DNA of 64,000 bases from Terriglobia bacterium (GTDB taxonomy: Bacteria; Acidobacteriota; Terriglobia; Bryobacterales; Bryobacteraceae), in assembly GCA_025358575.1 (NCBI GenBank), contig JANYJA010000144.1, forward strand, positions 1 to 64,000, read 5' to 3'. This document shows positions 21,951 through 23,234 of the stretch, one piece after another. The notes under the pieces are model-generated. The model searched no databases and was not told the origin of the DNA. It saw only the letters and a list, made by a program, of their open reading frames with translations. The position numbers were made by a program, and so were the translations under genes. The first letter of the stretch is position 1, and every line of letters begins with the position of its first letter.

Positions 21951-22297
21951 AAACTCCGGTCAGCTCGATGCTACTGGTTCTCATCGCCTCCTTCATAGGG
22001 TCTTTCGGCGCCGTGTTTTTGAAACTAGGAGCGGAACGGCTTCGCTACGGGCTCAGGCACATCCTAAGCTGGCAGGCGTTCGTGGGAGTTTCCCTATTTT
22101 TGATTTCATCCGGCTTCTTTTACAGAGGCATTAAGCACGGCGAACTGTCGGTTTTGTACCCCATGGTGTCGCTGGGTTACGTTTGGACGTTACTTTGGTC
22201 GCGCCTGTTTTTCCGCGAGCCAATCACTGCGCCAAAGTTCCTCGCCCTTGGCCTCATCCTCAGCGGAATTGTCCTCATAAATTTTGGGGCTCGCTAG
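21947..22297 (+). CDS. Small EamA/SMR-type transporter subunit 2 (ArnE/F-like)
   Basis: A 116-residue four-helix partner of the preceding protein. GTG at 21947 overlaps the upstream TGA (GTGA), so the two are translated together; an ATG at 21881 would overlap the upstream gene by 70 bases and add non-hydrophobic residues. Repeated family pattern: IGSFGAVFLKLGAERL in helix 1 and GELSVLYPMVSLGYVWTLLWSRLFFREPI. The last 23 bases overlap the end of the DedA-rhodanese gene on the other strand. Confidence 0.82.
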   Translation: MKTPVSSMLLVLIASFIGSFGAVFLKLGAERLRYGLRHILSWQAFVGVSLFLISSGFFYRGIKHGELSVLYPMVSLGYVWTLLWSRLFFREPITAPKFLALGLILSGIVLINFGAR

Positions 22298-23234
22298 CGG
22301 GCATCAGCGGCTCTACGGGAAAGCCTTTGGCAAGCCAAGCTTCATATCCTCCCGCTAAGGGACGCACTCTCTTCACTCCGCGCTTTTTCAATTGCAGCGC
22401 CGCACGGGCGCTGGAGGCTTCGTTGGGTCAAGTGCAGTAGAGCACCACGTCGCGATCCCGAGGAATCTCCTCGTGGCGGGATTCAAGTTCTTCAAAATCA
22501 AAATGCAGCGCGCCCGGTATTTTGTCCGCCCCGTCTTCCCATTCCAGAGAATTGCGAAGATCCACCACCGCGACTTTTTCGCCCCGCTGAATCATACGAT
22601 CCAGCTCTTCGGGCGTAATTCGGGCAATTCGCAGTTCCCGGTAGAACCGCCGGCGCTCGAAAAATTTCCAGCCGATGTATCCGGCCAGGGTCACCGCGAT
22701 CACAACCAATAACCATGTGCCCATTCCCAGGGCGGCTTGTGCTAAATCCTCAAGCTGTTCGCGAAATAGAAGCCCGAGCAGGCTATAGCCACCGGCCCAG
22801 ATTAATGCTCCGAGCCCGTCAAATAGGATGAAACGCCACAACTTCATGTGGAACATGCCGGCGAGCGGCGGCGCGGCAGTGCTTAAGCCTGGAACGAATT
22901 TGGAAAATAGCAGTGATCGTGCGCCGTATTTTACGAAAACGTTTTCGGTGCGGCGGACACAAGAATCCGGCTCAAGCGAAATGCGACAGAGTAATTGCAG
23001 AATTGCCGACCCGCGGCGGCGGCCCATCCAGTACCAAATCAAGTCGCTTATTAGCGAAGCAATTAGAGCCAGCAGCAGCGCCCGGAAAAATTGCATCTTC
23101 CCCATCCCTGCCAGCGCACCCATCGCCAGCAAGACGGGTACTGCGGGAATCGGGAGTCCGATCTGCTCCACAAAAACGGAGAGGAACAGGATGCTATAGC
23201 CGTGCCGCAGAACGAATTCAAGTGTTTCTTTCAT
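22275..23234 (-). CDS. DedA-rhodanese fusion with in-frame UGA at the catalytic position (putative selenoprotein)
   Basis: Residues 1-200 form a DedA/SNARE-associated membrane domain (VPVLLAMGALAGMGKM, YGARSLLFSKFVPGLST). From about 204 a rhodanese sulfurtransferase domain follows (VAVVDLRNSLEWEDGADKIPGA). At codon 269 (22428-22430) the frame reads YCT-UGA-PNEASSARAAL and continues open through RVRPLAGGYEAWLAKGFPVE to a TGA at 22275. Counted from the UGA codon, the tail aligns without gaps to Escherichia coli GlpE starting at its catalytic Cys (shared SS, AA, G, GG-x-EAW), so UGA replaces the nucleophile. A hairpin of bacterial SECIS geometry follows. I read it as a 319-residue selenoprotein; a point nonsense mutation is the main alternative. 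Confidence 0.75.
22395..22413 (-). promoter_or_regulatory. Candidate bacterial SECIS hairpin
   Basis: On the minus strand a perfect 7-bp stem (CAGCGCC with GGCGCTG) encloses the five-base loop CGTGC. The loop begins 21 bases after the UGA codon and has a G at its second position. This meets the published outline for bacterial SECIS elements (loop of 3-14 bases, 16-37 bases from UGA, G among the first two loop bases). GC-rich coding DNA forms stems easily, so the hairpin alone is weak evidence. Confidence 0.55.

Follow-up and report, generated by a model that had tools for sequence, protein, structure and literature searches.

The window, the whole stretch of 64,000 nucleotides that was analysed, carries on its minus strand a gene for a DedA (VTT) domain fused to a rhodanese domain, with an in-frame UGA inside the rhodanese part. 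When genetic code table 11 is applied, the ORF ends after 268 residues, partway through the rhodanese domain and right before its active loop. The features of the locus are as follows.

22275 to 23234, minus strand: DedA (VTT)-rhodanese fusion gene, 319 aa if the UGA is read through, with its ATG at 23234
22277 to 22275, minus strand: final TGA stop of the gene in the read-through frame
22428 to 22430, minus strand: in-frame UGA at residue 269, proposed to encode selenocysteine within the motif YC-T-U-P-N-E
22434 to 22436, minus strand: codon of Cys267, the CxU partner two residues before the putative Sec (Cys in all 72 proteins aligned)
22959 to 22988, minus strand: codons of Cys83-x8-Cys92, a second Cys pair in a charged loop of the DedA domain
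22407 to 22413, minus strand: 5' arm of the putative SECIS stem, CAGCGCC, +15 to +21 after the UGA
22402 to 22406, minus strand: apical loop CGUGC, in which loop positions 2 and 3 (G and U) are the conserved bases
22395 to 22401, minus strand: 3' arm of the putative SECIS stem, GGCGCTG, +27 to +33 after the UGA

The neighbours of the fusion gene in the window are an asparagine synthase-like ORF in divergent orientation and a small membrane-protein ORF in convergent orientation; since the adjoining ORFs are divergent or convergent, the gene belongs to no operon. Between 21549 and 22297 on the plus strand, two overlapping small membrane-protein ORFs of 133 and 138 aa converge on the fusion gene, and the second overlaps its 3' end by about 20 bases. 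Across a pool of 63 loci (L023-L052 plus 33 fusion loci) that may include duplicates, a nitroreductase gene lies just upstream in 20 loci, clusters in which a YceI-like ORF precedes the nitroreductase were seen in 19, and a pirin gene is near the fusion gene in 7; most of these clusters come from one family. No neighbour gene was common to all 63 pooled loci examined, and gene neighbourhood is a weak guide to function here.

Both domains of the protein were recovered by Pfam, VTT_dom/DedA (PF09335) at residues 29-154 (59.9 bits for a gathering score of 33.9) and Rhodanese (PF00581) at residues 207-302 (61.1 bits for a gathering score of 22.2). An AlphaFold2 model based on 72 sequences (pLDDT 92.4) consists of helices up to residue 203 followed by the rhodanese domain, and a Foldseek search with this model retrieved solved rhodaneses (best match 3tp9, E 7.9e-07). 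In pairwise sequence alignment, with two residues gapped in the loop, Cys267 falls on the catalytic Cys of the solved rhodaneses, and the modelled strand ends at 266. As Cys267 is aligned at the catalytic Cys, Sec269 would be located two residues further into the loop, and the CxU motif at the rhodanese loop would read Cys267-Thr268-Sec269. Residue 269 is Cys or the presumed Sec in all 72 aligned fusions. The second Cys pair is similarly conserved (Cys83 in 72 and Cys92 in 71 of the 72 fusions) within the motif C-x(2)-S-L-E-P-D-S-C. Judging from their Arg-rich flanks, the charged DedA loop and the rhodanese domain probably face the cytoplasm.

On the minus strand, the TGA at 22430-22428 is followed by CCCAACGAAGCCTC and then by CAGCGCC CGTGC GGCGCTG. 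The sequence-only reading had described a perfect 7-bp stem closed by a five-base loop with G at its second position, and these were found at the coordinates it gave, 22413-22407 being paired with 22401-22395 around the loop 22406-22402. It had also given a distance of 21 bases after the UGA. The value of 21 nt is correct for the distance from the UGA to the loop; the stem itself begins after 14 nt. RNA folding predicted exactly this stem. The published bacterial SECIS outline (Zhang and Gladyshev, as quoted in the available part of PMC13188914) was applied by hand, and the hairpin lies inside it on every measure, as had been proposed: a loop of 5 nt (outline 3-9 nt), a stem of 7 bp (4-16 bp), a UGA-to-loop distance of 21 nt (16-37 nt), an energy of -12.8 kcal/mol (-7.5 kcal/mol or lower), and a G within the first two loop bases followed mostly by G or U, which CGUGC fits. 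The stem is contained in coding sequence right after the UGA, again as claimed.

The caution that a lone hairpin has limited predictive weight was also right. As many as 30 of 200 shuffled sequences fold as well as the window hairpin (z -0.98), among 20000 synonymous versions of this part of the window, 507 (2.5%) have the identical perfect stem in its original position, and some hairpin of at least 7 bp within the SECIS outline is present in 320 of 5000 synonymous versions of its 60 nt. A single sequence cannot decide, and folding of the single sequence, given its z of -0.98, was rejected as evidence for a SECIS. An Rfam search with 201 bases matched no family.

Homologues were collected by searching with the protein through 299 genomes from its own class; 208 of them contained a match with an E value of at most 1e-20. 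Among the matches listed, 130 loci were compared (30 plus 100 more), comprising all 84 rows with an in-frame TGA and 46 rows without. For residue 269, 83 of these loci have the codon TGA, 32 TGC, 14 TGT and one GGC, so that Cys is encoded in 46 loci and Gly in a single one. The Gly locus (L140, genome G069) retains the first Cys of the motif and was excluded from the comparison of Sec and Cys genes.

The genome to which the window belongs is 95.6% complete and contains selA (483.5 bits), a selC gene for tRNA-Sec with a UCA anticodon, and a selD gene that is itself Sec-coding, with an in-frame TGA followed by a 7-bp hairpin whose loop GGU starts 20 nt downstream of the UGA. SelA, SelB, SelC and SelD are all represented, SelB as contig-end pieces only, namely a 439-residue open end at contig C44 and, close to where contig C121 ends, a short C-terminal fragment. 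Directly after selD in this genome (L012:2505-3212), a stand-alone DedA-like ORF was observed which, by eye, is without the Cys83/Cys92 pair. The presence of selA was recorded in 79 of 83 genomes with a UGA gene versus 23 of 45 genomes with a Cys gene; among the UGA genomes, selA was not found in four (G034, G092, G124 and G296). These distributions bear on the possibility that the hairpin helps the UGA to be decoded mainly as Cys or another residue and not as Sec, through a thio-loaded tRNA-Sec under selenium shortage or through a suppressor. Cys is an accepted replacement in the 46 homologues, and DNA cannot tell insertion of Sec from insertion of Cys. However, selA, selD and selC(UCA) are all present and selA goes with the UGA, and we regard decoding as a residue other than Sec as very improbable.

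The UGA could also be a true stop or the product of a sequencing or assembly error, leaving a truncated DedA protein or a pseudogene, in keeping with the termination of the ORF at the UGA under table 11. Against this, 83 of the 130 loci, each from a separate genome, have TGA at this codon, and the signs of coding conservation do not stop there. Mismatch by codon position in the UGA genes is 0.364/0.238/0.596 over the 20 codons preceding the UGA and 0.333/0.257/0.598 over 20 codons beyond the hairpin; the pattern is the same on both sides, and coding conservation continues past the UGA. Downstream, G296 and W300 are invariant in the 72 aligned proteins. A stop or an error at this codon is highly improbable.

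Retention of the stem was then compared between UGA and Cys genes, with base pairs numbered from the first base after the UGA. The sequence-only reading had expected the stem to persist in other UGA homologues and to be lost from Cys homologues. The inner four pairs (18-30, 19-29, 20-28 and 21-27) are formed in 83 of 83 UGA genes, and the outer pairs 17-31, 16-32 and 15-33 in 80, 71 and 70, pair 15-33 being broken in 13 genes and 16-32 in 12. All seven pairs are formed in 58 of 83 UGA genes versus 3 of 46 Cys genes, and the inner four in 9 of 46 Cys genes; the expectation was thus borne out in both directions, with these few Cys genes as exceptions. Single pairs in the 46 Cys genes are formed in about half of the cases (18-30 in 21, 21-27 in 20, 17-31 in 21 and 15-33 in 24). 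The Cys genes that still have the stem look like remnants of recent Sec-to-Cys changes, which are known for other families according to the part of PMC1794560 consulted.

The pairs do not all carry the same weight. Pairs 19-29 and 20-28 count for little, because both join Ala-Ala codons and never vary. Pairs 15-33, 18-30 and 21-27 connect third codon positions, and for 18-30 and 21-27 these positions are synonymous. Third-base entropy at codons +6, +7, +9 and +10 is 0.16, 0, 0 and 0 in UGA genes and 1.35, 1.39, 1.38 and 1.63 in Cys genes, while at other codons it is on the whole similar in the two sets. When the genes were resampled synonymously with their own codon usage (300 resampled sets), full stems were obtained in a mean of 1.9 and a maximum of 7 of the 83 UGA genes, compared with 58 observed, and the inner four pairs in a mean of 15.6 and a maximum of 26, compared with 83 observed. 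As the hairpin is kept with the UGA and mostly lost with Cys, the UGA is almost certainly read as selenocysteine, as far as comparison of the genes can tell.

The loop bases follow the same trend. All 83 UGA genes have G at position 23, but this has little weight as evidence, since it is mainly due to the Arg codon located there. Position 24 is U or G in all 83, in agreement with the published bSECIS pattern of a loop G followed by G or U (PMC13188914, in the part available). Among the 79 Arg codons in the loop, the third base is never C or A; CGC, which makes up 49% of the Arg codons elsewhere in the UGA genes, is absent, an outcome with a chance of about 2e-32 if codons are assumed to be independent.

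Covariation was analyzed in an alignment of the UGA genes with 76 distinct rows. The outermost pair 15-33 changed from C-G to G-C, on both sides, in 16 distinct rows. The covariation score of 0.089 (versus 0.041) was reached by none of 500 shuffles, and 94.7% of cells are paired at the stem versus 21-61% in slid controls. In these 76 rows, the counts of pairs with changes on both sides and of further pair types were not above those of shuffles, because the core hardly varies within the class. On a tree of the homologues built without residue 269, Sec and Cys were exchanged at least 15 times. Supported branches yielded 11 independent pairs; the stem accompanied Sec in 6-7 of them, ran counter to it in none and was alike on both sides in about 4, with a two-sided p of 0.0156 as the median and 0.0156-0.0625 as the range. 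Shared ancestry therefore does not explain the link between stem and Sec, although the number of independent events is modest.

To look beyond the class, a SECIS-blind pattern, YC-x-UGA-P-x-E with loose downstream codons, was scanned over GTDB species genomes; it forces the two Ala pairs only and leaves the free pairs unconstrained. The scan matched at least 118 loci, and all 118 listed read as a CxUP rhodanese stretch. Among these listed matches, pair 18-30 is formed in 114 (C-G 82, U-A 21, U-G 6, G-C 5) and pair 21-27 in all 118 (C-G 110, G-C 4, A-U 2, U-A 1, U-G 1), position 23 is G in all 118, and position 24 is U in 97 and G in 21. In Betaproteobacteria the stem reads GGCG...CGCC versus CGCC...GGCG in the window, a compensated stem. 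The compensatory changes that the sequence-only reading had predicted for UGA genes are hence seen at the outer pair within the class and at pairs 18-30 and 21-27 across phyla. Beyond the class the two outer pairs are not conserved, being formed in 68 and 61 of the 118 matches listed. A DedA part is present in the same frame in 33 of the 118 matches listed (18 Acidobacteriota, 9 Pseudomonadota, 3 Rokubacteria, 2 Myxococcota and 1 Vulcanimicrobiota) and absent in 85. These 85 loci (in the range L153-L270) are CxU rhodaneses sharing the hairpin core, from Chloroflexota, Thermodesulfobacteriota, Nitrospirota, Myxococcota and others.

That the stem has no function and simply results from encoding the conserved peptide S-A-R-[VA]-A-L with GC-rich codons can be dismissed as highly implausible: the same peptide is conserved among Cys genes, Ala codons force two of the seven pairs, and stems arise by chance in a GC-rich gene at the rate given above, but third positions free of the peptide are frozen or co-vary in UGA genes only, pairs are compensated across phyla, and the synonymous-site tests, with 1.9 full stems expected and 58 found, already refute it. 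Readings of the stem as a terminator, a regulatory element or an effect of codon bias were discarded, since the conservation of third positions goes together with the UGA.

Considering together the hairpin, its retention with the UGA, the compensatory changes, the exchange of UGA and Cys, the coding conservation past the UGA and the Sec machinery, we are highly confident that the hairpin is a bacterial SECIS and that it directs Sec to the CxU loop in the rhodanese domain. During translation, SelB with Sec-tRNA(UCA) would bind the apical loop (G-[U/G]) and the upper stem, and selenocysteine would be delivered at the UGA located 21 nt upstream of the loop. The product would be a DedA-rhodanese of 319 residues and not a 268-residue fragment devoid of the rhodanese active loop. 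In this protein, Sec269 would follow by two residues Cys267, which would replace the rhodanese catalytic Cys, and Cys267-Thr-Sec269 would be placed at the mouth of a cytoplasmic sulfurtransferase or redox domain tied to a DedA-type membrane domain. SelB binding, Sec insertion and membrane orientation are all predicted from the genes, and the Cys-Sec pair may carry out thiol or persulfide chemistry.

Compared with known bacterial SECIS elements the hairpin shows no geometric difference, but its primary sequence GCC-NG[U/G]NN-GGC varies unusually little from phylum to phylum, since the protein motif constrains it as well. Among the closest described families is NF041203, rhodanese_LYCAU, named 'rhodanese-like form 3, CxU' in the accessible part of PMC13188914, which like the window protein has a rhodanese domain with C-x-U-P-x-E. 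Among NCBIfam models it gives the window protein its best match, with 90 bits over residues 202-309. The curated cut-off is 115; the window protein and four other fusions score 57-90 bits, and among four full-length stand-alone proteins two score 168-174, one 118 and one 75 bits. The stand-alone members found by the scan have the same hairpin as the window, but the model spans the rhodanese domain alone whereas the window protein is a DedA fusion. Assignment of the window protein to NF041203 was rejected, 90 bits being below the cut-off.

DedA-rhodanese fusions of COG0586 are on record (PMC10127716), as is PA1209 (PMC12893004), and they share with the window protein the order of DedA (PF09335) then rhodanese (PF00581); the portions of these two papers that were available make no mention of selenocysteine. 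Such DedA proteins are believed to act as flippases for undecaprenyl phosphate; the purpose of the fusions and the link of the rhodanese to the lipid carrier are called unclear (PMC10127716, same portion). TsoB (NF045694) is described in the available part of PMC13188914 as a rhodanese/DsbD fusion-like selenoprotein, and like the window protein it ties a rhodanese selenoprotein to a membrane redox protein; however, only its rhodanese part matches the window protein (25.6 bits for a cut-off of 805), its membrane domain differs and its Sec motif is UxxxxU. DedA has been tied to selenite uptake (PMC11422209, in part), and Ledgham 2005 is cited for this link in the available text of PMC10127716. 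As an explanation of the present gene, the DedA-selenite link was rejected as too loose to use.

A Sec-containing DedA-rhodanese was not found in the open-access literature searched. The terms DedA, SNARE, VTT, TVP38 and PF09335 do not occur in the available text of PMC13188914, and no DedA-type selenoprotein is among the nine new families as given in the available part of PMC12013277. The putative SECIS is of a known kind, and a Sec DedA-rhodanese with a second Cys pair appears in no selenoprotein listing searched.

With the UGA read as Sec, an ORF that looks truncated becomes a selenoprotein gene, which standard annotation would stop at the UGA. Within one bacterial class this gene is common, with 83 loci from as many genomes, and the scan places the UGA gene in at least five phyla. 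One alignment-based SECIS model should capture all CxU rhodanese hairpins, and the many Sec/Cys exchanges together with near-frozen SECIS codons constitute a natural data set for the decay of a hairpin after loss of the UGA. A Sec at the rhodanese loop, together with a conserved Cys pair in the DedA domain, suggests that the missing link in the known but unexplained DedA-rhodanese fusions (PMC10127716) is thiol/selenol chemistry, and four residues, Cys83, Cys92, Cys267 and Sec269, are named as targets for mutation. A speculative extension, which we consider possible but rather unlikely, is that the cytoplasmic Cys267-Sec269 pair swaps electrons or persulfide sulfur with the fusion-specific Cys83/Cys92 pair in the DedA loop, whereby the sulfur/redox state would switch or drive flipping of the lipid carrier. 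Were such a relay to operate, the protein would be a DedA flippase under redox control and the first selenoprotein with such architecture.
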